From Antedon mediterranea (Eukaryota > Echinodermata > Crinoidea > Comatulida > Antedonidae), in NCBI RefSeq assembly GCF_964355755.1, contig NC_092670.1, forward strand, positions 31,979,795 through 32,043,794: a DNA stretch of 64,000 bases. The letters are read 5' to 3'. Below the pieces are notes generated by a model that searched no databases, was not told where the DNA came from, and worked only from the letters and a program-made list of their open reading frames with translations. Of the stretch, positions 1,061-57,800 are shown one piece after another (within the stretch, counting starts at the first letter, position 1; each line of letters begins with the position of its first letter). Both the position numbers and the translations under genes were made by a program.

Positions 1061-2670
1061 TTCTACACATTTTTATTAAATTTATACAGAATCCCTTCAG
1101 AAAATGACCGATTTTTTTGACAACTTACATATGGAATTTCAAACCCAAACTTCAATGGATAGTAAAATTAATGATTATATTTTCTTTATTACACAAAACT
1201 CATTTTGAAAAAATTATATGTCGGCCTATTCTAGTTCAAAGGTGCAAGTTTACAGCCCTTTCGTGGTAGCAGGTCACATATTAACAATCTTTATATATCT
1301 AAATCACTAAGATGAATTGTATAACACATAAGTACATAGGATTAGTATATCATTCTTTTAGCTATACTCGAATTCCTATCTGCTTCCTGATAAACCAAAG
1401 CCTAATTACTTTAGCAGGCATCTGTTGCCATAGCAACAGGACAGTTCTATAAGCGGAATTCAATGTTGGTCAAAAGGTTTGCTAACTATAGTGTGGTAAG
1501 CACACAGTCCATTTAATTATAAGTTAAAATAAACGTTGTCTAAACATATAATACAAAGTGACTAATCAAGTGAGAAATACAATGAATTTGACTTAGCCTC
1601 AAGAGTGGTAAACATGAGTCTGAGAGGTGAAGTCTATAGAGCGATGTCCATAAGTATTGATAGAAGTATTATTTGCGGCAGTAGATTTTTGTCGCCTATG
1701 TGGACCCTCATGGCGAGTAGGTGGAACAACACTCACTTCTGCCCCAGTGTCTATGAGGAAACGTTTTGATAATTGATTTACAATAAAGAAAAGACTACTT
1801 ACGATTTGACGGCCAGCAACATTCATTGCATTTAGTTGTCGGCGTTGGAGTTTTCCGAACACAGCGGATTGCATTTTCGAGCATTGACTCCAATTTTTTC
1901 ATGGTACCAACAGAGTTGCGGAGTGTTGTTGTGATGTTGAGCAAAGCGATTGGAACTGTTAGGTTGAGCAGGAGATGAATGCCTACTACTCGATCGATTT
2001 CAATGTTGACTTGTGCTGTGACTTTGATATCTGATGTGCCGTCGGTCAGATTACAAGGAATTAACTTGTGTTGACAGTTGTTGAATCTGTTTTTGCAGGT
2101 TTTCATGGGTGGCAGACAAGGAGGGTGTATTGTCCATGAGTACTGCCGATTCACTTGTTGGCCCAGTTGCAGTTACAGAGACTTCACTAATTTGTCAGCC
2201 AATGGTGTTAAGCATTCCAGGTTCAACTCATCCTTGGTTGAAGCTAGGATAAGCTGTACATATAGTTGGGAGGCGACTTAAGAATACTGTAGTTGTTTCA
2301 TAATTGATGGTTCGAGTGGCCTGTCACCTAAGAGTTGTTGGCATCTGGGTAACATTTATTAATAAGTAATTAATGTTTTTTACCCAGTCATCAATGTCAA
2401 CCCCACTTCCTTGTCTTCCAGTAAACACTAGCTAGGCCTATAATTTGAAATTTTCCTTCATTTTCATCAGACCTGGGCCTATCTGAAGCAGCAGAACTAC
2501 TAACAGTCTCTAGGCCTAGCCCAACATTCCAATAGGTGGTTTAACAGAATGTTTCCCTCCAAGTATTTCATTCAGTGCGTGGTAATGCAGACTTAGGATC
2601 GTCCCTTATCACATTACATGCCCTTTTCCCGTGCCTTTGATAAAAATGTCACAGACATGTTTTGTTTTCT
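1061..2670. other. Non-coding, transposon-derived flank
   Basis: Apart from the protease fragment, this stretch is AT-rich sequence with no recognisable gene. Short open frames on both strands lack domain signatures. It sits between two transposase or retroelement relics and is probably old mobile-element sequence. Confidence 0.4.
1599..1874 (-). pseudogene. Retropepsin (aspartic protease) fragment of an LTR-type retroelement
   Basis: A 91-codon open frame contains FLIDTGAEVSVVPPTRHE followed by a downstream AANNTSINTYG block. This is the usual spacing of the catalytic D-T-G loop and the flap/second strand region of retroelement aspartic proteases. The catalytic Asp-Thr-Gly is intact. No reverse transcriptase follows downstream on the minus strand, and the overlapping frame at 1795-2154 (119 codons, Thr/Leu/Asn-rich) shows no domain I recognise. 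I call it a fragment of a polyprotein rather than a host protease. Confidence 0.65.
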
Positions 2671-3430
2671 AACTTCTTCATCCATGGTCCTGTCAGCTGT
2701 TTGCCAATAAGACCTACCACATGCAGCTCAGCAATTGCTAACTTCTTCATCCATGGTCCTTTCCGCTGTTTTCCAATAAGACCTACCACTTGCAGCTCAG
2801 CAATTGCTAACTTCTTCATCCATGGTCCTGTCCGCTGTTTGCCAATAAGACCTACCACTTGCAGCTCAGCAATTGCTAACTTCTTCATCCATGGTCCTGT
2901 CAGCTGTTTTCCCAATAAGACCTACCACTTGCAGTTCAACAATTGCTAACTTCTTCATCCATGGTCCTGTCAGCTGTTTGCCAATAAGACCTAACACTTG
3001 CAGCTCAGCAATTGCTAACTTCTTCATCCATGGTTCTGCCCGCTGTTTTCCAATAAGACCTACCACTTGCAGCTCAGCAATTGCTAACTTCTTCATCCAT
3101 GGTCCTGTCAGCTGTTTTCCAATAAGACCTACCACTTGCAGCTCAGCAATTGCTAACTTCTTCATCCATGGTCCTGTCCGCTGTTTTCCAATAAGACCTA
3201 CCACTTGCAGCTCAGCAATTGCTAACTTCTTCATCCATGGTCCTGTCAGCTGTTTTCCAATAAGACCTACCACTTGCAGCTCAGCAATTGCTAACTTCTT
3301 CATCCACGGTCCTGTCAGCTGTTTGCCAATACGACCTACCACTTGCAGTTCAACAATTGCTAACTTCTTCATCCATGGTCCTGTCAGCTGTTTGCCAATA
3401 GGAGCTACCACTTGCAGCTCAGCAATTGTT
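2671..3430. repeat. Minisatellite, 69-bp unit, about 11 copies
   Basis: A 69-bp unit starting AACTTCTTCATCCATGGTCC repeats about 11 times with a few substitutions (GTCAGCTG/GTCCGCTG, GTTTTCC/GTTTGCC). Because 69 is a multiple of three, open frames run through it on both strands, as 23-residue repeats. On the minus strand the repeats follow an apparently unique leader (3430-3642, starting METVKGFNTFLERNN). I recognise neither the leader nor the repeat and treat the ORFs as by-products of the repeat. The flanking 3480-3790 block is repeated at 11010-11340 and 13610-13940, without this array. Confidence 0.9.
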
Positions 3431-4239
3431 ACCATGTTCTCAAAGTCTTTCATTAGTGAGGCTTGTATTCCATCTAGTGATTTACTGATTCGCAACATTT
3501 CTGTGGAGAGTTTGTGGAAGTGGATGAGAATTCCTACTTTATGAAATAATATGTGATGGGGATTGCTTCTATACCTGGGTAGGATATTTCTAGAAACATT
3601 ATTTCTCTCTAAGAATGTGTTAAACCCTTTCACCGTTTCCAATTTTATAACAGTTTACTCATTTGAACAATAATATTTGCAGCTATGCAATAATTCCCAA
3701 AAAAATGAGCTTTTAATAAAAACACATGCATCATGCGCACTACCTGGCATACCAACACATGATAGACCAACCATTAGCATCAATCAGAGCTTTAGTTGTA
3801 GCATAATTGAATATGATGATTTTTTTTTTGATTTTTTTTTCTGGTTATGGGCTAGTTCTAGGCATGAAAAATAAAATGCAAACAAAAGACATTTTTAAAA
3901 TTCTATTCTGCATAATAACATTTCTATATTAATATTGAGTTTACAAAGTTTAAAACTACATAAATTAACACATTACTATCTTAGCGTTGGTTGCATCACC
4001 TGATTCAACCACTCAACCCCATAGGCACAGACAGCATTATTACGTATCATAGAAAAAAAAATACATGGCTCAACCAAGAAGCTTTAAATCATATAATATT
4101 TTACCCTAATATATGTGTTATCCGGGTACAAAATGATCTGTGAAAGAATATACAATACTTCAATGCAAGTGTTGATGTTTCTGAATCCGACAAGCAAAAG
4201 GCTTGCACATCATGTCTCATGTTTGCCAACTAGTGTTCA
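3431..4239. repeat. Segment A of a locally duplicated repeat block
   Basis: Positions 3490-3790 are closely related to 11010-11340 and 13610-13940, including the shared GCAACATTTCTGTG and GGATTGCTTCTATACCTGG strings. A single copy of the 33-bp unit that is amplified at 11337-11703 occurs here, around 3725-3760, and a partial copy occurs near 4478-4500. From 3870 to 4239 I see only AT-rich sequence. Confidence 0.6.
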
Positions 4240-4603: not shown

Positions 4604-5560
4604 TTATATCTGTTCCATGTATAGCTGCTGAAATTTGTGGGAATATTCCTTCATTCTAAATTTCTCAACATTGTTCTGCAAAATTATAAAAGAAAAACAG
4701 TGTTTCATAAATATTATGTAATATGCTTCAGTTGGCCGCTGTGCTTCAGTTGGCCGCTGTGCTTCAGTTGGTTGTTGTGCTTCAGTTGGTTGTTGTGCTT
4801 CAGTTTGTTGTTGTGCTTCAGTTGGTTGTTGTGCTTTAGTTGGTTGTTGTGCTTCAGTTGGTTGTTGTGCTTCAGTTGGCCGCTGTGCTTCAGTTGGCCG
4901 CTGTGCTTCAGTTGGTTGCTGTGCTTCAGTTGGCCGCTGTGCTTCAGTTGGCCGCTGTGCTTCAGTTGGCCGCTGTGCTTCAGTTGGCCGCTGTGCTTCA
5001 GTTGGCCGCTGTGCTTCAGTTGGCCGCTGTGCTTCAGTTGGTTGCTGTGCTTCAGTTGGTTGTTGTGCTTCAGTTGGTTGTTGTGCTTCAGTTGGTTGTT
5101 GTGCTTCAGTTGGTTGTTGTGCTTCAGTTGGCCGCTGTGCTTCAGTTGGCCGCTGTGCTTCAGTTGGCCGCTGTGCTTCAGTTGGCCGCTGTGCTTCAGT
5201 TGGCCGCTGTGCTTCAGTTGGCCGCTGTGCTTCAGTTGGCCGCTGTGCTTCAGTTGGCCGCTGTGCTTCAGTTGGCCGCTGTGCTTCAGTTGGTTGTTGT
5301 GCTTTAGTTGGTTGTTGTGCTTCAGTTGGCCGCTGTGCTTCAGTTGGTTGTTGTGCTTCAGTTGGTTGTTGTGCTTCAGTTGGTTGTTGTGCTTCAGTTG
5401 GTTGTTGTGCTTCAGTTGGTTGTTGTGCTTCAGTTGGTTGTTGTACTTCAGTTGGTTGTTGTGCTTCAGTTGGTTGTTGTACTTCAGTTGGTTGTTGTGC
5501 TTCAGTTGGTTGTTGTGCTTCAGTTGGTTGTTGTGCTTCAGTTGTTGTGAACGGTGTCAT
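4604..5560 (-). CDS. Hexapeptide-repeat ORF across the 18-bp minisatellite (doubtful gene)
   Basis: A 318-codon open frame starts MTPFTTTEAQQP, continues as about 45 TEAQ(Q/R)P hexapeptides, and ends in a non-repetitive tail of about 40 residues (YIIFMKHCFSFIILQNN...). The paralogous segment at 13961-14164 keeps the same frame through four repeats and the same tail with few changes. That could mean a short transposon-encoded peptide, or just sequence similarity between duplicates. The plus strand is equally open, as hydrophobic repeats, because the unit has no stops. The third copy, at 9661-9815, does not preserve the tail frame. I see no promoter or splice evidence and consider it probably non-coding. 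Confidence 0.2.
   Translation of the reverse strand: MTPFTTTEAQQPTEAQQPTEAQQPTEVQQPTEAQQPTEVQQPTEAQQPTEAQQPTEAQQPTEAQQPTEAQQPTEAQRPTEAQQPTKAQQPTEAQRPTEAQRPTEAQRPTEAQRPTEAQRPTEAQRPTEAQRPTEAQRPTEAQRPTEAQQPTEAQQPTEAQQPTEAQQPTEAQQPTEAQRPTEAQRPTEAQRPTEAQRPTEAQRPTEAQRPTEAQQPTEAQRPTEAQRPTEAQQPTEAQQPTKAQQPTEAQQQTEAQQPTEAQQPTEAQRPTEAQRPTEAYYIIFMKHCFSFIILQNNVEKFRMKEYSHKFQQLYMEQI
4725..5544. repeat. Minisatellite, 18-bp unit, about 45 copies
   Basis: An 18-bp unit, GCTTCAGTTGGCCGCTGT or the variant with GGTTGTTGT, is repeated about 45 times. Variant units are clustered in runs, which suggests expansion by slippage or unequal exchange. Related segments carry only about four copies (9750-9815 and 14077-14140). 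The flanks (4604-4720 and 5545-5620) match those of the short arrays, so this is one locus type with very different array lengths. Confidence 0.95.
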
Positions 5561-6290
5561 GATTTTCTGCCACTACCTTGGATAAAGCATCTCTAATAAC
5601 ACTTGTTGCCAGATATTCATGTTGTATTAATTTGTTTAAAAAAATTAATATACCTACTGTACCAGTTGTTCCTGATCACCTGGTATTCTATTTTTACATG
5701 TTGTATTAATTTGTTGAAAAAAATAATAATAATAATAAAATTAATATTTGTAGCTATGCAATCATTTCCAAAAAATGGCCTTTCGCTGCAAGTGTCTCAA
5801 TTTGAATTTCTGAATAATTTAATAATACAAACTCTTTCTTTCCACTCCTGATTTGGTTAAATATTGGCTCGAATTTCCTTCTGTCGACCATATCCTTCTT
5901 CTGTTGTGCTACTTCATTTGCATTTCTTGTCGTTGCTTCCGTACTAACTTAATTGCAGTTTTTAATGCTGCCTTTCTTATATTTCCACTAATCTGCAAAA
6001 TCCAGATCATCTCGCAAAAGATATGAGGCAAATTCAAACATTGAAATGTAATCAGTAGCATCATCAAGTTCTTCTGCTTGATTCCAGTAACCAACTTTAT
6101 ATTTTTTATTTGAATAAAACTTCTGATCATGGCATCTTTGGTTTTCTCCAGGCCTACAAATTGGATGCATCCCTTTGCTGATTGTTAAGGATCCAAGATG
6201 GATTGTGCCGGAAAACTTAATGTAGTTGGGTTAATTGCAGTTTTTGCTTCAGCACCCAGAGAAGAAAAAATTACTTTTTGTAAATTATAA
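5545..6290. repeat. End of segment A of the local duplication
   Basis: The block 5545-5720 recurs at 9825-9985. The block 5900-6290 recurs at 10340-10740 and 12330-12690, with only a few substitutions. On the minus strand each copy shows a frame with ICRPGENQRCHD and KKYKVGYWNQAEELDDATDY, followed by a one-base frame break before ISGNIRKAALKTAIK. I take these as exons or remains of a transposon-encoded protein. A related ICRPRENQ motif occurs at about 15360-15390. Confidence 0.6.
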
Positions 6291-10889: not shown

Positions 10890-11336
10890 GTTTTAAATGC
10901 TTGCTATTAGGCTTTGAATTACTTTTGGACGCATTAGTTGTATTTTTTGACCGATTGAAGTCTGGACAGTTCCTCTGAAAATGACTTGGTCATTCAAACA
11001 CTTAACAATTTCAGATTGATGTACTGGTTCGCAACATTTCTGTGAAAAGTTTGTGGAAGTGGATGAGAATTCCTACTTTATGAAATAATATGTGTAGGGG
11101 ATTGCTTCTATACCTGGGTAGGATATTTCTAGAAACATTATTCTATCTCTGTTGAACCCTTTCACCGTTGCCATTTTTATAACAAGGTTTACTCACTTGA
11201 ACAATAATATTTGCAGCTATGCAATAATTCCCAAAAAATTTGGCTTGTTCTAGTTTGAATGTATTCCTGGTTACTGAATCTGTGACAATTTAATTTATTG
11301 AGAGTTTTACAATGATATTGATATAGTGAAAACACT
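10890..11336. repeat. Segment C, left part
   Basis: Positions 10890-11000 match 13495-13600 (GCTTGCTATTAGGCTTTG and GAAGTCTGGACAGTTCC), and 11010-11336 matches 13610-13940 and 3490-3720. This is repeat sequence of unknown type, with no intact gene. Confidence 0.6.
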
Positions 11337-11703
11337 TGCATCATGCGTACTACCTGGCATACCAACACATGCATCATGCGTACTACCTGGCATACCAACA
11401 CATGCGTCATGCGCACTACCTGGCATACCAACACATGCATCATGCGCACTACCTGGCATACCAACACATGCATCATGCGCACTACCTGGCATACCAACAC
11501 ATGCATCATGCGCACTACCTGGCATACCAACACATGCATCATGCGCACTACCTGGCATACCAACACATGCATCATGCGCACTACCTGGCATACCAACACA
11601 TGCATCATGCGCACTACCTGGCATACCAACACATGCATCATGCGCACTACCTGGCATACCAACACATGCATCATGCGCACTACCTGGCATACCAACACAT
11701 GCA
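11337..11703. repeat. Minisatellite, 33-bp unit, 11 copies
   Basis: Eleven near-identical 33-bp units each contain CATGCGCACTACCTGGCATA. The first two units carry a T for C change. The unit exists as a single copy in segment A (around 3725-3760), so the array arose by local expansion in this copy. Frames are open in all phases because the unit lacks stops and is a multiple of three. Confidence 0.95.
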
Positions 11704-11916
11704 TCTAGACCAACCATATAGCATCAATCAGAGCTTAGTTGTAGCACAATTGAATATGATGATGTATGATTCAAATAATCCTGAGGCTCAATATTCGGTG
11801 CTTTCATTTTATATCTGTTCCATTTAAAGCCGCTGCAATTGCCGATTCAAATGGCCCGTTCCAATTGTTGCGGAACTTAATGACCTGTGGATTGGCGTTT
11901 TCAAATTTAAGCTCCC

Positions 11917-24237: not shown

Positions 24238-24398
24238 TAAAGCCTTGTCTACACTATTAAACTTTATGTGACAAAAATGTGATCATATATGGACATGATG
24301 ATGTCATATCACTAGAATTTTTTAGTATATCACTACCATATTTGGGCACATAACATCTTTTTTTGTCAAACTAGTTTGATAGTGTAGATATAGCTTAA
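24238..24398. mobile_element. M1 MITE copy a, in CREB 3' UTR
   Basis: This is a degenerate copy of the palindromic family with ends related to AAGCTCTGTCTACACTATC. It lies 38 nt after the CREB stop codon and contains the core ATGATGTCATATCAC. Confidence 0.8.
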
Positions 24399-24436
24399 GA
24401 CAAACCTTCAATAAATCATTCAATAGATGTAATATT

Positions 24437-27400
24437 TTATGCATCATCTGCTTTATGACAGTAAAGTTCTTTTAATGATTTCAATTCCTCTATCAATGTT
24501 TTATTTTGGTTTTCAAGAACAGCAACACGACTTTCCAGACATTTAATATACTCTTTCTTTTTCCGCCTACACTCCCTTGCTGCCTCTCTGCAAGATAGAA
24601 ATACAAAGAGTTACATTTTACAACAAAATAATTAAGGAAAACAAACATACACAATTTTTTAATGAAATCTCCTTTAATATTGTTGAAATGTGAAGGTTTT
24701 CCAACAATAATGTGTCAGTGTGTTTCTAACAAGTCACCACATATACAATAGTGTTCCTGTATAGGGATACAGAAAAGTGTTCTCTGAATCCAACAATTTA
24801 TGTAACATTACAGCTGTGCAGATTATAGGAAAGGCAACTCAAGAAACTAACAACAACGTATCAACCTGAAACTGTAATGACCTAATGCTAACACCACAAA
24901 GCAGATAAGCTGAGTAGCTAGGTAGGTACAGTCGAACCCCTATTAAGGGGACACCTTCATGACCCAACAAAGTGTCCCTTTAATAGGGGTAACCAGTGAA
25001 TAGATGTTGGCCATTATATTATAAAATATATTGCCCTTGTTCATTTTATGGAGAAAAGTCCCCTTAATAGTGGTGTCCCCTGAATAAAGATGCCTCAAAG
25101 GAGGGAGTCTACTGTATAAATCATAATTGTGAAGCTAGCTCTACAATTTAAACACATTGAGGGACCATGCCAAATTTATTCTACTGTACGTTACTGCAGT
25201 AACAATACATGCACGTTACTGCATAGATTACCAAACTAAGCAAATTACTGCAGTCTCTGCAGTAGAATAATTTTGATGAGGTCCTGGCACTTTCTGTACC
25301 TGTTATTGAGAAGCCTTTGTTGTCTCTTCCTAGAAGCAGCCTCAATAATATGCTGGGGGGTTGGTAGGGACCCCTGGCCAGCCACACATGTTACTACTCC
25401 CGCAGGCAGGCTAGAAGCAGTGGCTGGCCGTATTTGGTAAGCTTGCACATCCCCTAGAAACGAACACAGAAAAGAGTTTCAATTATTCAAAGCGAAAATG
25501 ATCTTAGTTTCATGTACCTGTTTTTGAAAAGCCTCAGCTCTCGTTTCCTGCCGGCCTCCTCCACCAGAGTCTGCTGAGAGTTATTTAGGCCGCCTTGGGT
25601 TGCCATTACAACACTTTGGGGTAAGCTGGTTGCAGGTCTGATCTGGTAGGTTTGGACGTCTCCTAATTGAATAGGGGTGAAATTGATATCTGTTAAATCT
25701 GGAACAGACTAATGACATCTCTACAATGAAAGTAGATCAATGATCTTTGATGAAAGAGTATTAATTAAAAGGTCTGTCTACACTATCAAACTTTATGTGA
25801 CATTAAAAATGTGATGTACTCATATACATGGACATGATGATGTCATATCACTTCCATATTTGAGCATATCACACTTTATTTGTCAAAATAGTTTGATAGT
25901 GTAGACAGAGCTTAAGATGAGCACCTCTTCTTCAATACCCTAGATTATTAAGTAAGCAAATTTGCCCAACAAAATAAAAGAACCATCATTAATATTAAAA
26001 CATTTTACACTTAACTACACTTGAACTAAACTTTTTATCATAACTATGTTTTTATATGAATCGAAATAGAGGATATTTACTATTAAACCGGTTAAACTTT
26101 TAAGGTCATATTTACCATAATAGTAGATCAATCGTACTAGTACTACTCAAGGCAACACAAGCAATGCATAATTTAAGGATCAAAATTAATTTAGTATAAA
26201 AATGTGGAAACAGTGTGTGCTTGCGTATTTTAATGATTTAATATTGTATTTAAAAATACAATATTATTTCCGCTGTTACCTAACTACAACTATCAAAAGC
26301 TAAGCTGTTAATTTAACTGTAATGCAACCATAAATACTTAGGCCTAGTTCAGAATTTTGAGGCTTAGCACATGACCCTAGATTATTCAAGATGAACAGGT
26401 GACACAGGTCTGATGAAGGAATATCACATCTACCTACTATACAACATTCAAGTGTAATAAAGGTTAGGACATCTGCATATCAAGCAGAAGGCCCGTTTCA
26501 ATCTAGGTTGGGGAGACATTTTCTCATCTTCATCGTATCATTTATCGTATCAAATTTATTAATTTTCAGTATATATTACCGGATGGTTTAGAATGTCTTC
26601 TAATGCATGTAAATGTTTATATATAAAGTGTATTTTCGGAAATCGCGCTTTGTGAATTAATATACTGAAAGAAGAAGGCGTATTAATTTGATCTCTGGTA
26701 AGCGTGCGTACAATTGAGGGACTAGTGCTGTTTCACTGTACCACACACTGGGGTATTAAAAAGTCACCTAATTTTAACATTGTCATGAAATCCCCCAGTG
26801 GTATATAGTAATAGTTAGGACATCTGCATATCACACAGAAGGTTTCTACCTCAAATCTTGGTTGGGCAACTTTTTCTCATTCTCACAGATTTCCTCATCA
26901 TAATTTCAAATGAATTAATACTCATTACTTACTAGGCAGTTTTTTTCCCTAATGTCTGTAAATGTTTATAATGCATTATATAATTGTTGATTAAAGCTCT
27001 GTCTACACTATCAAAATATAGTTTGACAAAAAAAATGTGATGTGCCCGAATATGGTAGTGATATGCTTAAATATGGTAGTGTTATGGCATCATCATGTCC
27101 ATATATGGGCACATCACATTTTTTTGTCACATAAAGTTTAGTGTAGACAGAGCTTTAGTTTATTATGTTATTGATATTTGACTGACATTCAAATCCAGAT
27201 CAATGACCTCATTTTGAGTTATAGTGAAGCACAGTAACACAGATTTCCCACAGACTGTCAATAGCAACACTGACAAATAGAATGTGATAATTAATTGTGT
27301 CTGTAGAAATAGGCCAAACGTAATCATTCCTTAAAGCTCAGGTACAGGCATGAATTTTAAATATAATATTTGGTTAATTGTACATAAATCAAATATGTGT

Positions 27401-30400
27401 AACAGAAATCATGACGAAAAAACATGAATTTCCCTTAATATGGTCAAATACAAAATTTGGCAAAATTCTTCCATAAAAACCAAGAAGACCTTTTTTCAGT
27501 AGTTAGGTAGTTAACCTAATGTAATAACATGTCTGGTGACTCCCTAGAAGGTGAAAAAAGATGGTGGATATACGGTGGATAATTTTTGCTATAGCATGAA
27601 AATAAAAATCTGAAGTTGAATAAAAATACCAGAAATGTAATATTCAAATTATATTACCTATATTTAGTCATCTGATAACATTTTTTACCACACTGTTTAT
27701 TTTTCATAGCCTTTTAAAATGTCTCTCTATTTACAAAATTTGTGTACAAAGAATAGAGATTTTACTGTGTAATTTGAACTATCCCCCCACTGATAAGAAA
27801 GTGCTGATTTTCAACAAGCTTGTGTAACACAAATAAAATCCCAAAAATTATGAAACATAGGGAAAACTATAGATCGATAATTATTGGAATGTATGATCAA
27901 TAGAAATTTTTTGCCCGCACCTGGATAATAGGCAATTTAACTGCAAAGTAGACAAACAAAATACCTGTAGCTGTAGGTACAAAAAACTGTTGTCCATCTT
28001 GAGTTTGTATGGACTGTACTATTGTTCCAGCGGGGGTGCCATTTGCATTTGTCATAGTTAATGTCTGTAAGCCCTGCATGTTGTCCGGATGGTTGGCTAT
28101 CTGTATAGTCGTGACACCAGACCCTACAAAAGAGAACATGTCAAAAATATTTATTTAAATTTTCCATACAGAGCGTCATTGTAACCAATTTATACATTTT
28201 AAAAATTTAAGGTACAGAAATAAAATTATGGAACAGAAAGTTCTACTGATATTTTCACTAATTCAAAAAATGTTTGAGTTTATTAATCGGCAAATAAACG
28301 GCACAAAACAAGAATATCAATACAGAAAGAAATTAGAAGTGTTCATTCTGGAACTATGGGTAACCATTTATTCTCTCTTTGATATTTTTGAAGAAAGACC
28401 AATAAAATTGTCATAATTAATATTTACTATTCCTAGTCATTTGATTGGACGTTTTTAAATATTATTTTCATTAAAGGTAGCATAATGTTTATTCTATAGT
28501 TCTAAAATGAAAACTTTTCCAATTTATGTTGTTTTATGCAAGAAAAAAATATGTTTATTTATCGTTTTCACACAAAAAAATGTGATGTGCCTATATATGG
28601 ACCGATGATGTCATACTATTACCATATTTGGGTATATCACATTTTTTTGTCAAACTAGTTTGATAGTGTAGACAGAGCTTAATTGGGCTTATAAGTGGCA
28701 TTTCATTTACCAGCTGTGAAGTTTTGTAGTGAAGCTGCTGTTAGTGTGGTTCCCTCCGTGTCTTCAGGTTCCTCTTCTATCTTTGCAACACCTGGTGCGT
28801 CTGATGACAAATCGTTCAGAATTTTCCTGCAAACACATTTCATAATAAGTAATAAATAATTATATTTCGTGAAAGCTAAAAGGTTGTTTTTTCAGTTCAT
28901 ACAATTATTTGTACCATCACATGTGATAAACATGCATTATTATACATACCTTAAAGTTAGTTACTTTTGCTAGCAACACATAATTACCATAAACCCATGA
29001 GTGTAACCTGCACACAGACTGTATCCAACAAGTAGAGTGTAGTCAAGTGGTAGAAATCATGTACTAAATTGTCTTTATTTATGGAATAACAATAGGGAGA
29101 GGTTCCATGATTCAAACAAAGGATTGGGCTTTTGTACGGGTGTGGGGCTAGCTGTGTAGACAAGAGGTGGGTGTATTCACAAAACTGATTTCTAGGTGCC
29201 CACCCTTCAAGGGTATGTTGGTACCAGTGAAGGAAATAATTTTGTTTTAAAACTGTTTTCAATAACTTTAAATCAATTCATTACTTTAGCTTAAAAATAT
29301 TCTACCTGTATGAGGGTCTACGAGACAAAATCTCTTGTCGTTTTCGCCTTTCTACCTCTGATTGTATTGCGGGTAGACCACTTTCTTCATCAACTTGTGT
29401 AACCTATTAAGAATTAAGAAAAATATTATAATTTAAACATGTTTAATTCTGTATTATTATGAATAGCTAATGAATAGGACCGGTGATAGATATGCTTGTA
29501 TTCAAATGATTAAGCAATCAAATGACCTGAATCCAACCAAATACTGTTATTTTAATTTTTGCATCTGATCGAAACTGGACTAGACAGTATACTTCCAATG
29601 CAAAATATTTTAGATTTTATTTTCAATTGCTCTACATAACATTTTGGTTGCCCAATTGTATAAAATTGTGTCTACTGTAGCTAGGAATTATGGTAACATT
29701 TTGAGTTGCAGTAAAAAAATGTATCAATATTAATGAAATTCTAGAAATAAAACCAGAAGAATCAATTAACTTAACTCATTGAAAACAATACAATAAAGTA
29801 GTTACGTCAATTGGATTACAAGATAATGCTTCCTTATAAAAATTAAGTTCATTAACAAGCTACTAATTAATTAACTTTGATTTGGCATTAAGTTTAAATA
29901 GTACTTAAATATTTGTAATGACAATGAATGTTGAGAGTTGTGGCAAAACTAGGCCTATAAAAATAACTTGTTCAGGAAATGACTGGATGCAATAGGTTGT
30001 GACTCATATGGTACACTAACTCTAGAGTTGAACATTGTCACTTTTCAGTTTTAATCATCCTAAGGTTTATACGTAAATTTATAGATTTAGATTTTGCAAA
30101 ATTTTTTATAATAAAATGCTATAAAAAGATAATTAAATAACTGGACTTGTTTAAGCATAATGTGAACATTACCATAAAGTTATTTTCAATACTACAAGTG
30201 ACACCCTATTATCCCAAGTTTATACTGCGCATAAATATTTAGATTTTGCAAAACATTCAACATGTGAGTGATTAAGAAGCAAATAAAACACAAACAAACT
30301 ATTTATTATTTCATTATCTTTGTGATAATAGAGGCCTGACGCCACATGACTCGGACATGGCGTCTAGTATCGCGTCAAGTCGGTGAGGCTGCAGTAGACA

Positions 30401-33400: not shown

Positions 33401-34269
33401 GTCAAATAATGTCAACACAGTTCTTTAGTTACCTGTACTTGAACTGTTGGAAGTGGAGTTGCTTGGATTACAGAGGGCTGGTTACCCTGCTGTTGCTGTT
33501 GTACAGATTGAACCTGAACGGGAGCATTATGCATAGCCGACATTACCACGGACACTGGTACAGGTTGGCTCACGGTCGTTATACCCTAATTATATAAGAG
33601 ATCAATTGAAATTAATCATTGAATATAATGACATAAATGATAACTGTAGCAAATCATAGTTTGAGAATGTTCTTAACTTTACTATCCTTGTTTAAAATAA
33701 ATAAGGGGTTCTCTATGATACAGAATAAATCATAATATATTATTCATAATCTCCCACACAAGAGCTACTGTATAGTACTAAAACATATTGCAGAAGTTAT
33801 CAACATGTTTGAATATACAGACTAAATAAAAATGACAATGTTCTACTGTAATTTATTCTACTAGTCTACAGTACTGCTTAAAATATTAACAATTCTAAAA
33901 CTTAAAACCGAGACCTTGTTTATTAAAATAATATCGAGACAATTATTTCTGAATCCAAAAGGAAAGAGTTATAACAACAAATAAATTTTGGGATTTTAAA
34001 TTATATTTAGGGGAAAAACCCTTTTCAGAATAAATCAAATATGTTAGAAAATAATTATCAAGATATAATTTTCCTCTAGTCTCAATGAATTGATGTTTGT
34101 GCATTACACACTTATACTTTGGGTATCAATTTCATAACTCGCTGGTTTTTAAAACAGATTTGAGAAATTATAAATGGATATGAATGGTTTGTTTACAAAC
34201 CTGTAATGTAGCAGTGGCATCCGTTTCTTGGGACCTTGGAACCGTTTCTGCTTCGGATTTTGCTTCCAT
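24437..34269 (-). CDS. CREB1: CREB-family bZIP transcription factor (CREB/CREM/ATF1)
   Basis: This is a nuclear cAMP-responsive activator that binds TGACGTCA as a dimer. Coding exons, 5' to 3', are 34201-34269, 33433-33585, 29306-29403, 28711-28826, 27965-28123, then either 25518-25662 or 25300-25453, then 24437-24587. All have GT-AG sites and matching phases, giving 296 or 299 residues. Exon 2 is Q-rich (VQVQSVQQQQQG). Exon 3 carries the kinase-inducible domain, with ILSRRPSYR holding the PKA-site serine, and continues as KILNDLSSDAPG. Exon 5 is the second Q-rich activator. The last exon gives EAARECRRKKKEY, LESRVAVLENQN and the leucine zipper. The start ATG follows an acceptor at 34310, and a non-coding first exon is likely at 38267-38450. 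The single invertebrate gene probably predates the CREB1/CREM/ATF1 split, so the symbol names the family. Confidence 0.93.
24928..25116. mobile_element. MITE-like element, CCTATTAAGGGG family
   Basis: It starts ACAGTCGAACCCCTATTAAG and ends GAGGGAGTCTACTGT, with internal inverted CCCTTTAATAGGGG strings. It lies in the intron between the alternative CREB exons and the last exon. Confidence 0.65.
25300..25453 (-). CDS. CREB1: CREB alternative exon B (variant basic region first half)
   Basis: This exon is 154 nt with the same phases as exon A. It encodes 52 residues from GDVQAYQIRPATASSL to RKRQQRLLNNR. It aligns with exon A end to end, which shows tandem exon duplication. The Lys before the invariant Asn of the bZIP basic region is replaced by Asn (KNR to NNR), and Glu-Leu becomes Gln-Gln. 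Joining A to B, or skipping both, shifts the frame. The acceptor is TTTCTAG and the donor CAG/GTACAG, both intact. Confidence 0.85.
25518..25662 (-). CDS. CREB1: CREB alternative exon A (basic region first half, canonical)
   Basis: This exon is 145 nt, enters in phase 1 and leaves in phase 2. It encodes 49 residues from GDVQTYQIRPATSL to RKRELRLFKNR, where the shared last exon continues EAARECRRKKK. The sequence RKRELRLFKNREAA is close to the vertebrate CREB basic region. The acceptor is CAATTAG and the donor CAG/GTACAT. Its homologue, exon B, lies only 64 nt downstream. Confidence 0.9.
25769..25915. mobile_element. M1 MITE copy b, CREB intron
   Basis: This is a full-length copy whose TIRs read GGTCTGTCTACACTATCAAA and GTTTGATAGTGTAGACAGAG. 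Orientation 1 is defined here as CTTTATGTGA on the left. It lies 106 nt upstream of the exon A acceptor. Confidence 0.9.
26994..27155. mobile_element. M1 MITE copy c, CREB intron
   Basis: This full-length copy is in orientation 2, inverted relative to copies b and d. It is the only copy far from an exon (about 810 nt). Confidence 0.9.
28568..28682. mobile_element. M1 MITE copy d, CREB intron, 5'-truncated
   Basis: This is a partial copy in orientation 1 ending GATAGTGTAGACAGAGCTTA. It lies 28 nt past the donor of the exon at 28711-28826. Confidence 0.85.
32025..32430. repeat. GA-rich low-complexity tract in CREB intron
   Basis: The tract consists of purine-biased GAGAAGA/GGTGGAAGAGA-type degenerate repeats with no unit that stays in register. 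Confidence 0.6.
32500..33200 (+). mobile_element. Internally deleted piggyBac element with TTAA target sites
   Basis: The element is bounded by TTAA at 32496-32499 and at 33201-33204. The ends are CACTTTCACTGCCA and TGGCGGTGAAAGTG (13 of 14 matched), the arrangement expected of piggyBac. Inside, 32670-32836 encodes a short frame, RKQHNVLTADEAIAEIFADS, then an acidic DSENEYLLSPDDEG. This resembles the acidic N-terminus of piggyBac transposases and ends in a stop. The rest of the transposase is missing. It sits in the 4-kb CREB intron. Confidence 0.8.
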
Positions 34270-38266: not shown

Positions 38267-38450
38267 CAGTTACGTATTTTCTCGTCACAGCTGTTCAGCG
38301 ATCGGAGTGGCCACCTTCTTTACTACGTAGCACAACGTCAAAGTACACGAAAATCGTCACAGCTTACAAACAACAACGACCTTATCGCGATCATCTTTCT
38401 TGCTAAAATTCTTCCGCCGACGTGGCAGAGTTGATGGAAAGGGCAAAGTT
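38267..38450 (-). other. Probable CREB non-coding first exon with a short uORF
   Basis: A strong donor (CTG/GTAAGT) ends this block. The upstream limit is a guess from the promoter position. The minus strand carries an ATG followed by an 18-codon frame (MIAIRSLLFVSCDD...) ending in TGA, which would be an upstream ORF ahead of the CREB start in the next exon. Confidence 0.4.
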
Positions 38451-38462
38451 TGCTTGGTTTGC

Positions 38463-38557
38463 CAACGTCACATGGTACAAATTGAAATGGTGACGTCATT
38501 TAAATCAACTACCATTGGTTAATCAATATAAAAAAATATTAACCGGAACTACGTCAT
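38463..38557 (-). promoter_or_regulatory. Putative CREB promoter: CRE cluster and CCAAT box
   Basis: A perfect palindromic CRE, TGACGTCA, is at 38491-38498. A GTGACGTT half-site-like sequence (minus strand) is at 38464-38471 and another CGTCA half site is within TACGTCAT at 38550-38557. An inverted CCAAT (ATTGG on plus) is at 38514-38518. The cluster lies just upstream of the inferred first CREB exon, which suggests autoregulation. Vertebrate CREB and CREM promoters are known to contain CREs. Confidence 0.5.
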
Positions 38558-39838: not shown

Positions 39839-42800
39839 TTATTGGTTGGGTTCTGTTTCGGGTATTTTCCAGTTCAATTTTCGACCCTGTTCATAAAGTT
39901 CTTTGAGAGTTGATTTCCATAATGTTTTGTCGTTTCCATTGTCGCTGAGTTCAAGGTATTTCTCGTAGAGCATCAACGCAGTACGTGCATCCTCTATACT
40001 GTCATGAGTTTCTGATTGGATGTTCAGCTCTGAAAGAAAAAGTTGAATATATTGGATAACAAAAGTTTTGCAATGCCACTGCCTAGTTCACACGCAAAAG
40101 CCTACCAAACACCAGTCCTGGTGCTGTCCGTGTAAACATCCTAATTATTTTGTGCGTGTCTAGAATTTCAAATATACGTAGAAAGACTATGAATTGAAAT
40201 TAAATTAGTTGACAGTTGACTTACTTAAAAAGTACCAGGCAAGAAATTTGAGTGAAGCAAGACGTTGCTTAGGCAGACTGAATAATATGGCTGTGTCCAT
40301 TATTTGGTTTGATGGTACCTGAAAAACAATATTTTCAAATAATAAATTGATCAGTCCTTCCTTCTTAGCTTAGTTACATCACACTTTCTTGTCAAACTAG
40401 TTTGATAGTGTAAGCCAGAGCTTAAGAAACCCTTTTACCTGCAGGTTGATGACTCTGAAATCTTTTTTTAGTCCATGACCAATGAATATCACTCCTCTAT
40501 TAACAAGATACTTAAGTTTCAAGTACGTTGTTTTTAAAGTTGTGATATGTTTTGAAGAAATCATAACATCCAGATCACCTGGCTTGATTCCGGAAAATTT
40601 TGTTAAGTAATCAACAACCTAGTGAACAAAGATTTAACATTTAGTATAAGTCGAACCTCTATTAAGGGACACCTTCAGGACCCAACATAGTTTCCTTGAA
40701 TAGGGGTTGGCCATAGTGTTAAAACATATAGTTCCAATTATTTGTTTCATGGGAAAGTGTCCCCTTAATAGATGTGTCCTAAAGAAGAGGTTCTAATTTG
40801 CAAAACAAGAAAATTCGAATTATCTTTTTGAAAACTTATTCTTTCACATCCTCTAAACTTGTCCTGGCATCTGAAAGCTGGTCCTAAAGGGGTAAAAGTT
40901 ATCCTGACTAACATAGGTTTAGTAAAACATTTTGATGAAGTTTCTACCTGTTCCTGAGTTGAGATGTAATCATCAATGAACGGTATTCCTTGCATCGGTC
41001 CAGTGCCTCGTATACATGTTGTCCTAGCAACTGACATTTGGCTTGGCTTAACAGTAGTTCTTGTACCATCACTACGTATCTCAGCCTCTTCCTTAAAAAA
41101 TATAAAAAAAATCTTTATTCACATTACTTTCTTTGGTGTCAATATTTTAGACCACAGTAATCCCAATTTTGAAATATAGGGAAACTTTACAAAAGCATGG
41201 CCAAACCGTAAAGGGCACTATTAAACGAAGAAATATTTCTCACAAAAAACGCCCCTTGACGTAATAGTTTTAATTATTGTTCTTTTTTTTAGAAATAATG
41301 ATCTATTATCAATTATTTTTGTTCAACAGTAAGTAGTAAACATTCTGTGTAAAGTAAATATAGTCTGGCCTACTGTACAGAACAACTATATAATTCTGTG
41401 TAAAGTAAATATAGTCTGGCCTGCTGTACAGAACAACTATATAATCTTAAACTAAACTATAGTACTGTACATATTCCAGGTAGGGCTATTTCCTATAGTT
41501 AAAAATGGGTATGGCAGGCAAGCATAAAATATGCATTGTGTGTGCAATACATTTAAACAAAAGTAGCCTAGTAGTAGGGCCTGAAAGGTTAAAGATGTAT
41601 TGTCCCCAAAAACATGAAAAATGAAGATTAATAAAATCAGACTTTGAATATGCCATTTTGTAGTTTTAACCAAGTGAATCACTTCTGAAGAAAAAAAAAC
41701 CTTGAAAAAATAATTTTTTCACTGATAAATAAAACGGTTAAATTTAACGAAAAACTCATTGGCTGGCAGCCAACTTGACTATTATTTGCTTTAAATTACA
41801 GTTTTTCAGTAAATAATTTTTTTTTTTATGCAATTCTTTGATTTGAAAAAACCCAATTTTTAGGGTGATATTTCTTTAATCAATCAGGATGATTTGAATG
41901 TATATTAAAAACAATCAAGAGAAACTGCGCCTGCAGCGGAGGACAGGAGATCACTTTTTGAGAAAACCATGTAATTATTTTCTTATTATTACCTGGTTTA
42001 GTGATACAAACTCAGCATCAATAGCAACAGGGAATCCTTCCTCAAATGAAAGTTCATTAGGCTGTAACGGTGTGAATGTCCTATGCTGGTTCTCAGAGCC
42101 TTGAGCCAGTGAAGCCTTAGGTAGTAGTACACTTTCATCTATAGGATTTTGCACTAAAGAATAAAATAATGATATTTTATATATATAGATATTTAAAAAA
42201 AACCATATGAAAAATAAAGCTCTGTTTTAAAATGTGGTTTGTAAATTAATAAAAAGAAATAACAGTATATCTATCTTGTTTGTAAGGATGCCTAAATTAT
42301 ATATTTCTCAGTGTTGGATCGTCTATTTTGAAATTAATTAATTTCTTGACTTGATCCACCTCACAGTCTTCATATTTCTAAAGGAACATATTTTAAGCTG
42401 TCTACACTATCAAACTTGTTAGAAAAAAAAGTGTAATGTGCCAAAATATGGTAGTAATATGACATCATGTTCATATATGGGCACATCATATACTTTTTGT
42501 CACATAAAGTTTGATACTGTAGACAGAGCTTACTACCAAACTACGGTATTCAACCAAATATACTTATTTTCAAACTTACTCAAAATTTTTCTAAGGTTGG
42601 CAGACTTTTTAGCAATAATTGGAAAATGTTTCAGGGTAATAAATAGTCGTTCTTACCAGTGGTGTTGTACCGATCAGATAAATCTGTCCGAGTGAAATAC
42701 AGAACACAAGGCATCTTCCAGTCCAGATTGAACTGCCTGGCTTCATATCGCTCAATTGGTGTAATAGCAAAATCGTTAAACACATACCAGTTTGTATGAG

Positions 42801-51800: not shown

Positions 51801-54800
51801 AGCATTACAATAGGCATTTGGAATGTGCGTTTCCAGGCCAGCAAAGTTTGTCTTGTTGTAGTGACGAAAGTCAAAATCTTCCACGCCAAGCTTAGAATAT
51901 TTAATCTCAACCTTGCGGTAATGTTTTGGTATCATGAACATATTAGGATCCACGTCTGAAAAAAAATATCAAAAATATGTTCCTATTAAATGGTTTTTTT
52001 CCCCATAAGAATCAAACAGTGAGTAACTTGTCAATAACAGGATGGATAAACTATTTTATAATTTATATTAATAATCGGGCTTATAAACTAAGTTTCATTT
52101 GAGGCTTAGGGAGTGGAGTTGAAAGAGTCATGAGTTACAACCCTGGCATTAGGTCAGGATTGAACTCTGGAGCTTGGGATTACTGTAGAAGGAAAACACG
52201 TTATCCATCAAGCTACAACCAGATTAGACTTTGATATGCCTATAAATACAGTACTGTACCTCTTCCAATCGGTGAATCCGGTACCGGCATATTCCTTCCG
52301 GTACTCGGTTTGATACTTGAAACAACTTCCTTATACTGACACTGATTTCGTTTTAGTTTGCGTGTATTGGGGGCGTATCCGATGAACTGCACGACACGCA
52401 TACTGCGTAAGATATCAGGATCGACAGGCACTGCTTTTCTACAAACAAAAAATATTTATAAAAGTTTTTGCATTTTTTAATTAAACAATTTATATAATGC
52501 GATAAAACAACTATGAAAAGAATAGGCAGGATAGCGATAAAGACAATCTTAAAAATGTCATGTGTTTAAAAATTTGAAGCATTTGAAAATATTCTTGTAC
52601 TAGAAATTTCTCTCACCTTGACACTGGAGTTAACAAGTCACTTGGCCAGTCTGAGAGCAACGTTGATTCACTATTAGGAGTGGGTATGGTTGATAAAGGA
52701 GTGAATTCATCCATTATTCCAATAGGGTTCAAATGGTCCACCTAGTATACAAAATAAAAAATTCCATTATTCATTCATTCATATCTACATTTATCCATCA
52801 GTTTTAAGATAATTTAAACATAAATTGATTAATCAGAACAACAAAATAAATAAACTGTTGATAGGGCGGAGCCTTCTCTTGTGAGGATCCTATGGACATA
52901 ACAAACTGTTGATAGGGCGGAGCCTTCTCTTGTGAGGACCCTATGGACATAATAAACTGTTGATAGGGCGGAGCCTTCTCTTGTGAGGACCCTATGGACA
53001 TAATAAACTGTTGATAGGGCGGAGCCTTCTCTTGTGAGGACCCTATGGACATAATAAACTGTTGATAGGGCGGAGCCTTCTCTTGTGAGGACCCTATGGA
53101 CATAATAAACTGTTGATAGGGCGGAGCCTTCTCTTGTGAGGACCCTATGGACATAATAAACTGTTGATAGGGCGGAGCCTTCTCTTGTGAGGACCCTATG
53201 GACATAATAAACTGTTGATAGGGCGGAGCCTTCTCTTGTGAGGACCCTATGGACATAACAAACGAAAAACTAAAAGGTAATGCCTAATTCAAAATTGAAA
53301 TGTGACCACATGGCTTAGCTTATAATAAGACATTTATGTATTATAATTTAAATGTATAATAAATGAACTGTCATAAAGAAATATTATTTAATACAAAGTA
53401 AACAAATGATACAAAATAAAATGTAGAGTTGCAACCAAGCACAAATTACCTGTGGAGCAAACTCTGTTTCTTGAGAATAATCGTTAAATACCACATCATC
53501 AGTCTCGCTCCATAAATGGACATAACCTGACAAAAAAATTGATTTAAATAAAGTATAGTATAGATGCAGTTATACACACCACAATGATAATGTAATGATT
53601 AAACCAGTTGAAAAGTATATTACATTAGCATTACTTATGATAAAACATTGTCCACTATTATGTTTCAGGAATATATTAGTCAGCAAAATGACTTCCTAAC
53701 AGTTATACCTTCGTCATAGTGAACAGATGTAAGAAATAATCATCGATTTCTTCGATGCTAAGCAAATGATGATGATGCTTAAAAACGTCAGTTTGAACAG
53801 GGCCTATTTGACTCTGACAGGCAGAAGATATAGACGTGATAGTACCTACCTCCTGATTCCCCAAAAGCAATGCCCTGGAAATTGGTTGATACATCAACTG
53901 CACTGATCATGTGACCTCCAGTATTGATTTGATATAGAAACATGCTCTCAGCTGTTACTAAGCCACCAGGATCAAGCAACTGGAATTGACCACTCTAAAG
54001 CAATAAAAAAAAAACATTTGGCATCCATAAAATTGTTTTATTTTAATATTTTTTAAACATATGTTTTTAATTAGACCTAAATTGAGAAACAGAGTCCGTC
54101 AAATTTTAAAAATGTATCTACAATAGTTTGTGTTTAAATGACAATAAACAATCTTGCTATTAATACTACTACTGCACCAAAATATTAATAGAAATAGAGG
54201 AAAATCACTCAGGCATGAGAAATTACATTTTTTTAAGCATTATCAAATAATATCTTAATTATTTATTTTGTGTACTAATTGCAATTTTTATTTTTTATTT
54301 AATCTGGAAATATTATCACCAAAATAATGGTATAACCTGATAAATTGATTAAAACAAGTTTAATTTTTAAATAAACAAGAAGTTTTACCTGTGAAATGAC
54401 TGCCAATCTGTTTGAATAAGTCGGCACATATCTTAGAAAGACAGGTTCAATTGGAATCTGAAGAGGTGTGATTGGACGCATGACACGCAGATCGTAAACG
54501 ATAAGCAGACGATCCAACGCCATTGTACCCAGTCTGAAAATATTCAATTGGTGATTCATTTAATATTGTAACTGTAATATCTCTATGATTTCATTTTTCT
54601 TACACAAATAAATATGATTTTACATTGACCAGTCCCTAATAACATAGAGATATTAAAGTAACCTAAAAACAAATAACTGTAATATCTCTATGGTTTTGCA
54701 GTGACTGTATACCATAGCGATATTACATGTAACCCTAAAACAAATAACTGTCATATCTAGATGGTTTTACAGTGACCATAAAACCACAGAGATAAAGTTA

Positions 54801-57800
54801 ACCTTAAAACAAATAACTGTCATATCTAGATGGTTTTACAGTGACCATAAAACCATAGAGATATTACATGTAACCCTAAAACAAATAACTGTCATATCTA
54901 GATGGTTTTACAGTGACCATAAAACCATAGAGATATTACATGTAACCCTAAAACAAATAACTGTCATATCTAGATGGTTTTACAGTGACCATAAAACCAT
55001 AGAGTCATTACATGTAACCCTAAAACAAATAACTGTCATATCTAGATGGTTTTACAGTGACCATAAAACCATAGAGATATTACATGTAACCCTAAAACAA
55101 ATAACTGTCATATCTAGATGGTTTTACAGTGACCATAAAACCATAGAGTTAATTCTATGTTACCGGGTTGTTAAATGTTTATCCTTGTTAATGTTATTTT
55201 GCCACCAGTGCTATCAGGAGAGTCTTTGATAGCGATATTTTTTGCTTTTTGACAATCCGCCAGGATAGTGTTCTGCGCTTTTTCTCTGCTTCTTGTTGTT
55301 CTATGTAATTTTTGCTTTTTGTATTGTTTTTGCTTTATATATTTTTTTTTCTGGATAATAAATGAATATGAATATGAATAATATGAATAGAGATATTACA
55401 TGTAACCCTAAAACAAATAACTGTCATATCTAGATGGTTTTACAGTGACCATAAAACCATAGAGATATTACATGTAACCCTAAAACAAATAACTGTCATA
55501 TCTAGATGGTTTTACAGTGACCATAAAACCATAGAGATAAAGTTAACCTTAAAACAAATAACTGTCATATCTAGATGGTTTTACAGTGACCATAAAACCA
55601 CAGAGATACAGTTAACTATAAAACAAATAACTGTAATATCTCTATGGATTTACAGTGACACCAAAGAGATATTACAGTTAACACTGAAACAAATGTACTA
55701 TATCTCTATGATTTTACAGTGACCCTATCAAACACATAACTGTTTTTTTACAGAATATGAGAAAATATATAGGCAGTGTACCTGTCAGTTAAACCACATG
55801 TGACTAGCTGGTTGCCATGGACATCAAAGTCAGTGAGTCCACCCGACTGCGCATCAAGAGAATGTTGTATCTTCATAGTGGCTGGATCACGGAGGTTAAC
55901 CTGCAGAAAACAGAAATATATAATAAATGAAGGCAGAACAGAACACTGGATACAGTGTTTTTTTCATGTATGGTCCCTCGCATGAAAGTGTCCCCTTAAT
56001 CGGGACATTCACTAAATAGGGGTGTACTGTACTCAGTTCTACTGTATACCTACCTTTCCACTGCTATCTCCACAGCATAGGAAACGTTGACTTGTTCTTA
56101 AGACTGAAACCATTTCTTCCTCAATATCATACACTGTTTCATTCTCTCCTGTTGTCAGGTCCAACTTGATTAGTTTTTTGTTTTGTCCAGCCATGACAAG
56201 ACTAAAGGGGTCAAACAGCAACATTGACTGCATATTGTCCATTGTCGCATGTCTGAGAAATAAAATAATATAAACTAATGATGATTTTCATTTTATTTAT
56301 TCAAATTCTCACTGAAATGTACAAACAAAAAAGAAAAAGACGGGTGGTAGACACCTCTAGAACGGTCCAATCCCAAAATGATTCTTAAACTTTCAGCCAT
56401 GTTTTTTTTAGCAGGATATTCTTTGCAAAAGGGTAAAAATCGTTGAGCTGTTATAACCTATTTACCATGACTTCTCATTTCTAGTTTGAAAAGAGCACTT
56501 CAGGGCTTTCGTTTCGTGAACCTTCTATGGCTATGAACTTAGAGCTGTTTCCCAATACACAGGGTGTGTCCAGAAAGTGTAAAAGAGACAGGATTATCAA
56601 TGGTGAGACAACCCACCAAAATGTGGATACATGACCCTGTACAGTTTTTTGGTATTTAAGCCGACTCCTACCCCAACCCTTCCCACAATTCCTCTTCTCC
56701 AACCTCTACATTGTAGTTGGTTGAAATTGTCTCTTACTTGTAATCAAATATACGCATTCCCTGTCGTGAATTGCATCTCAAACTGTCTGCAGTAAGAGAA
56801 AGTACACCGCCATCAAAGGTAGCCATTGCAACAACAGGTTGCGTAGCATGTGTTTGGAATGATGTGTACTTCTGCAAGTGTGACCCATAGTAAGACGTCA
56901 CATGTCCCTATTAAATAAAACATTATCGACACTTTTTTTAATTAGCATAACAATAACAAGTTTACTAAATGGACATAATTTGAAAATTTAATGAATTTAC
57001 TTTTTAATAAGGGTAATGCACTTGCCAATTGAATGACCCACTATACAACACCTGGGAGAGGATGCGTATGATAGACACTGAAAGTCCAACATAAAATATG
57101 GGGTAAAGCTCTGCCTTCACTATAAAAAATGTGATTTCCCCATATATTGACATGATGATGTCATTTCACTACTATATTTGGCACATCACACATTTTTTGT
57201 CAAATTAGTTTGAGTTTGATAGTGTAGACAGAGCTTAAAGTTTTTTAGAAAAATGAAGATTGTTATCTCAAAATACCTGATGCGTTCCCATCCATAACAG
57301 CTCTTCCTTCATATCAAAATGAACAGTAGATATGCCATAATGTTCACAGCTATCACCAAGCACACTGTGCACCTCATGGTATTCCCCATGTGTTGAAATA
57401 GGTTCTACAAAACAGATATACTGTATGTGAAGCAGATACCAAACCTAGCATTTAGAGATGCTATTGTAAATAATGCTTTTATTATATAAGTTTTGGTAAT
57501 TCTTTATATTTTGTTTTGTCATGTTTTTCAATTGTTTCATATGTATTTTATTTGAATTGATCTCTTAATATCAGTCCTTTTTTAAATGAACTGCAAAGGT
57601 GATCTTCTCTAAAGATAGTTAATAAATTAAAGATAGTTAATAAATTAAATTTAGTGTGGCAATGAAAAAGATCATGGTAGTATTCTGCCTCAAATTTGCT
57701 AATATGCGGCCAAAATGATCAAAAACCTTTTTTGCGAGTAATATTTATTACAACCGTGTAAAATAATTTATTTGTTGCTTCTGCTACATACGAAAAGATC

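Follow-up and report, generated by a model that had tools for sequence, protein, structure and literature searches.

Two candidate mutually exclusive exons for the N-terminal half of the basic region in a CREB gene of Antedon mediterranea

The window analysed here, 64,000 nucleotides (nt) of Antedon mediterranea DNA, carries on its minus strand a complete CREB gene whose penultimate exon is present twice. The coding part begins at the ATG of an exon delimited by its open frame and GT donor (34201..34269, MEAKSEAETVPRSQETDATATLQ) and continues with a Q1-like glutamine-rich exon (33433..33585), recognised by its AG/GT borders and frame. The next two exons, placed by the spliced reading, encode the first part of KID (29306..29403, ending in RQEILSRRPSYR) and its second part (28711..28826, beginning with KILNDLSSDAPGVAKIEEE). 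The exon of the Q2 domain (27965..28123), defined by borders and frame, ends in phase 1. It is followed by exon A (25518..25662), which encodes the canonical Q2 end and the N-terminal half of the basic region (RKRELRLFKNR), and, after an intron of 64 nt (25454..25517), by exon B (25300..25453), a diverged duplicate of A with RKRQQRLLNNR at the same place. Both were delimited by borders, frame and alignment, and B was additionally recovered in a genome search. The last exon, C (24437..24587), assigned by frame and the Pfam bZIP_1 profile, is shared and provides the C-terminal half of the basic region, the RRKKK motif resembling a nuclear localisation signal (NLS), the leucine zipper and the stop codon. 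The predicted spliced protein has 296 amino acids with exon A and 299 with exon B.

The C-terminal bZIP is of the CREB type, as in members of the CREB/CREM/ATF1 family. The bZIP_1 profile scored 70.2 bits for the A isoform and 67.6 bits for the B isoform (cut-off 27.6), and the best PDB match of both was CREB1 in entry 5zko (E 2e-28 for A, 5.1e-27 for B). The spliced reading also contains EILSRRPSYRKILNDLSSDAPGV, a KID-like stretch with the RRPSY PKA site, which we take to be the KID motif; glutamine-rich stretches, judged by eye, flank it in exons 33585-33433 and 28123-27965. No second CREB gene was seen in the assembly of 354 Mb and 18 contigs, although weak matches may escape such searches. 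The A-isoform query gave nine matches, four of them exons of this gene and five at E 0.025 to 5, the B-isoform query likewise nine, three own exons and six at E 0.0246 to 5, and the zipper exon C was found only once with either query.

A likely non-coding first exon of the gene was noticed by eye, with its donor near 38267. The only full cAMP response element (CRE) of the window, TGACGTCA at 38491, lies near this exon, and the region 38283-38556 holds six of the 28 CGTCA half-sites of the window, one of them within the CRE. These sites suggest that the CREB gene is regulated by CREB-type factors, possibly by CREB itself.

The two adjacent exons had been proposed in an initial annotation of the window, and their positions on the minus strand were confirmed, with AG before and GT after each of them. 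A single coordinate has to be corrected: the upstream Q2 exon ends at 27965, and 27964, given as the junction, is the first base of the intron. Exon A comprises 145 nt and exon B 154 nt, a difference of 9 nt that preserves the phase. As had been claimed, both are entered in phase 1 and left in phase 2. The Q2-A-C and Q2-B-C combinations are each in frame and terminate at the same stop codon, joint inclusion of A and B or skipping of both leads to a wrong frame with stops, and a frame that continues beyond A into the 64-nt intron is closed by a stop codon within 10 codons. Neighbouring internal exons of similar sequence and the same phase, with no in-frame stop, are the marks of a mutually exclusive pair according to excerpts of PMC5740500, and A and B display all of them. 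A mechanism against joint inclusion would be provided by the frameshift together with the 64-nt intron and its candidate branch points.

The intron between A and B, judged in the initial annotation to be probably too short for splicing, proved to have the length given there and to be shorter than all 29 introns (109-1609 nt) sampled from six chaperonin genes of the same genome. The sample was drawn from six of seven fetched chaperonin loci (L015 was omitted) and does not include the chaperonin matches on contigs C4, C8 and C11 or two matches of locus L014. Exon pairs with more than six missing profile positions were skipped, two of the 31 introns inferred were dropped for poor fit, and the borders were picked with a generic splice matrix. 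Four uncounted matches spanning introns had a length surplus of about 117, 135, 150 and 210 nt when assessed by hand, none of them near 64. No full match to the branch-point motif YTNAY was found in the 64-nt intron; partial matches (TNAY, YTRA) would place the branch A at 14, 19, 31, 35 or 39 nt from the donor. Hatje et al. treat a donor-to-branch-point distance below 50 nt as a sign of steric interference, which they note for 9% of human clusters (excerpts of PMC5740500). Compared with the splice sites of the 29 local introns, the acceptor of B outscored 19 and that of A outscored nine, whereas the donors were about equal, with A outscoring six and B three. The splice sites of B appear usable, and the strengths fit a balanced pair that regulation could tip. 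We infer that the exclusive choice between A and B is probably both steric and locked by the frame.

The resemblance of exon B to exon A exceeds a chance match: in the 354-Mb assembly, B was recovered with the A-isoform query at E 2.1e-6 and A with the B-isoform query at E 2.0e-5. Homology along the whole exon length, another claim of the initial annotation, was borne out by the full-length alignment of the peptides, with the same residue at 30 of the 48 aligned codons. The differences at the first, second and third codon positions numbered 16, 8 and 30, the proportion of synonymous differences (pS) was 0.80, so that synonymous change is saturated, and nonsynonymous divergence (dN) was 0.28. 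In 5,000 codon bootstraps, with saturated synonymous divergence (dS) set to a ceiling of 9, the lower 2.5% bound of dS was 1.27, the 97.5% bound of omega (dN/dS) was 0.26, and omega reached at least 0.5 in 0.02%. When the exons with flanks of 120 nt were compared by blastn, the surrounding introns did not align; disregarding the overlap stretch common to both extracted pieces, one match of 27 nt lay at the exon ends (E 3e-5), and the others were at E 0.22 or weaker. Recent duplication and an assembly artefact were ruled out by the saturated synonymous sites together with the unalignable introns, and the failure of the introns to align is a further reason to regard the duplication as old. In 20,000 simulations of neutral drift on the B branch, 30 identical residues were kept in 0.02% at 0.5 substitutions per site and in 11% at 0.3. 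If the divergence is shared about evenly by A and B, exon B cannot have evolved freely over the greater part of its existence, although it may have fallen into disuse recently. These figures give good support to protein-level constraint on B through most of its history; the exon looks neither young nor long dead, and the status of a dead duplicate is unlikely for it.

The basic regions were compared with that of CREB1 in 5zko, RKREVRLMKNR. Exons A and B share seven of the 11 residues and differ at four, and B has Asn for the Lys preceding the invariant Asn, the replacement pointed out in the initial annotation. In B, one Glu and this Lys are missing, so that by count the 11-residue stretch has the same net charge in both exons. 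A Gln occupies the position of the lost Lys in ATF4 (confirmed by PDB 1ci6), and a working bZIP therefore does not require a basic residue before the invariant Asn. A literature search gave no usable account of the role of this Lys. Measured against human CREB1, CREM and ATF1, the majority residue was kept by A alone at nine positions and by B alone at three. Exon A is the canonical version and exon B the changed copy, yet B retains some residues lost by A. That one gene makes two CREBs differing in their affinity or specificity for DNA is a plausible proposal that falls short of proof, given the seven shared residues, the equal charge and the Gln of ATF4. A real change in DNA binding between A and B seems to us to have almost an even chance. 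Most likely, CREB-B would bind CRE-like DNA with altered affinity or flank preference. A basic-region change accompanying altered specificity was described for a fly bZIP in excerpts of PMC4362205, which is a general precedent only.

It is probable, in our judgement, that A and B constitute a working pair of mutually exclusive exons. The penultimate CREB exon would have been duplicated in tandem long ago and retained as such a pair. The spliceosome would connect the Q2 exon to either A or B, and the chosen exon to the zipper exon common to both forms; splicing from A to B would be blocked by the 64-nt intron, in which the space between donor and branch point would be too small, and transcripts with both exons or neither would be out of frame. 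One gene would give two full-length CREBs with KID, NLS and zipper in common but with different Q2 ends, linkers and N-terminal halves of the basic helix. CREB-A would be the canonical factor, and CREB-B would most likely still dimerise, including with A via the shared zipper.

Several observations weigh against a working pair. The intron sample amounts to 29 only, and short introns may occur elsewhere in the genome. The donors of A and B are both weak. Gaps in the alignment of A and B are whole codons by construction of the protein alignment and hence do not constitute separate evidence for B. The estimate of constraint comes from a single paralogous exon pair, 48 codons in one species, and neutral drift of B up to 0.2-0.3 substitutions per site fits the observed data. 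Finally, among the residues that two or more of human CREB1, CREM and ATF1 have in common, B lost nine and A lost three.

The strongest rival explanation accepts the choice of exons and places its main effect in the Q2 end and the linker, through contacts with the basal machinery or modification sites, with nearly equal CRE binding by the two isoforms. The larger part of the swapped segment indeed precedes the basic region, in which B retains RKR, R, L, N and R as in CREB1 of 5zko. The equal net charge and the Gln found in ATF4 speak for it as well, and the linker diverges even more than the basic region. However, the first stretch of the swapped segment, GDVQxYQIRPAT, is identical at 11 of 12 positions, whereas the basic regions differ at four of 11. 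We regard this explanation as a serious possibility that stays clearly short of an even chance. CREB-B might otherwise act as a natural dominant negative, dimerising by the shared zipper, binding DNA poorly and poisoning CREB-A. The zipper is common to both isoforms, the Lys before the invariant Asn is gone in B, and some basic-region mutants lose DNA binding and keep dimerisation (excerpts of PMC11333461); nevertheless, the invariant Asn is intact, as is the second half of the basic region, supplied by exon C, the bZIP_1 score of B is close to that of A and the net charge is kept, which makes a poisoning role unlikely.

A relict exon B, long used and now no longer spliced in, is very unlikely. 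B strays further than A from the vertebrate sequences compared, and neutral drift of 0.2 substitutions per site keeps the 30 residues in 67% and the open frame in 39% of simulations, but the open frame, the phase-keeping length and both splice sites of B are intact, and a longer drift of 0.5 per site can be excluded, since the 30 residues survive it in 0.02% of simulations. Highly improbable is a poison exon, whereby joint inclusion of A and B or retention of the 64-nt intron would yield truncated CREB or decay and so less CREB: the frameshifted A+B form with its early stops and the stop soon met by readthrough from A would suit it, but a poison exon could do without the protein-level conservation that B shows, and the 64-nt intron seems too short for splicing.

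Should A and B be a mutually exclusive pair, one known counterpart of the arrangement is found within the CREB/CREM family. The alternative exon of vertebrate CREM is the last one and encodes the second half of the basic region with the zipper. In the Antedon gene, by contrast, it is the preceding exon that is duplicated and the zipper is shared: the duplicated exon ends within the codon that follows the invariant Asn, and exon C, with the zipper, was found once, so that the arrangement is not of the CREM type. Vertebrate CREM reportedly has alternative DNA-binding domains, to judge from the title of Foulkes et al. 1991.

Among other factors, exons 18 and 18b of FOXP1 are, as proposed for A and B, mutually exclusive and in frame and replace part of a DNA-binding domain, the forkhead, and their swap alters DNA specificity (excerpts of PMC11701043). 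FOXP1 belongs to another domain family, and the change of binding was measured there, whereas for CREB-B it is predicted. Exons 18A and 18B of TCF3/E2A give E12 and E47 with slightly different bHLH domains, E47 being said to bind DNA more strongly (excerpts of PMC12585103); the CREB pair concerns a bZIP, and its swap takes in the linker along with the N-terminal half of the basic region. The COE/EBF genes share with the CREB gene a tandem exon duplication within a transcription factor domain (HLH), but inclusion of the duplicate is described as mandatory in vertebrates (excerpts of PMC2394523), whereas joint inclusion of A and B is forbidden by the frame. The CREB genes of honeybee (AmCREB), C. 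elegans (crh-1) and Drosophila (CrebB) each produce several isoforms. In honeybee, as in the Antedon gene, two exons, E9 and E10, together encode the CREB bZIP (excerpts of PMC1769443), and isoforms a-e of crh-1 have different N termini; no alternative basic-region exon is described for the three genes in the excerpts examined. Exon swaps within DNA-binding domains have precedents; one affecting the N-terminal half of the CREB basic region did not appear among the literature matches listed, represented by titles and abstract openings, which argues only weakly against an earlier report of it.

Few signal-driven transcription factors have been studied as much as CREB, which has roles in memory and signalling. 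Most of the isoforms described for it differ by the presence or absence of activation segments or serve as repressors, and its choice of targets is usually ascribed to cofactors and chromatin. If the exon pair works as proposed, splicing could redirect CREB, and a natural, long-kept alternative basic region would represent an evolutionary experiment on the residues that tune CRE recognition. More tentative, and on balance doubtful, is the wider idea of a conserved splicing switch, older than the divergence of many related species, between two CREB heads with different site preference that would direct cAMP and calcium signals to different target genes through splicing alone.

A short interspersed element resembling miniature inverted-repeat transposable elements, with inverted ends (TCTGTCTACACTATCAAACT...), is repeated in the introns and 3' flank of the CREB gene, at window positions 24300-24400, 25760-25920, 26990-27160 and 28580-28680. 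The 3' end of an upstream gene lies at 39840-40000 on the same strand as CREB, and its peptide resembles PAN2. Apparent tandem repeat arrays, noted from long open reading frames of repetitive sequence on one strand or both, lie at 2644-3654, 4604-5596, 11189-11827, 52804-53283 and 54705-55722. A COX1 family search and a query with a starfish relaxin-like peptide gave no match; the latter, run with no positive control, carries no information. Elsewhere in the genome, contig C3 contains at 19.6-25.1 Mb, over some 5.5 Mb, at least 19 very similar myosin-head matches (profile about 342-408), a lower bound as 65 of 335 candidates were scored. A single myosin gene, or pieces of it, appears to have multiplied extensively there.
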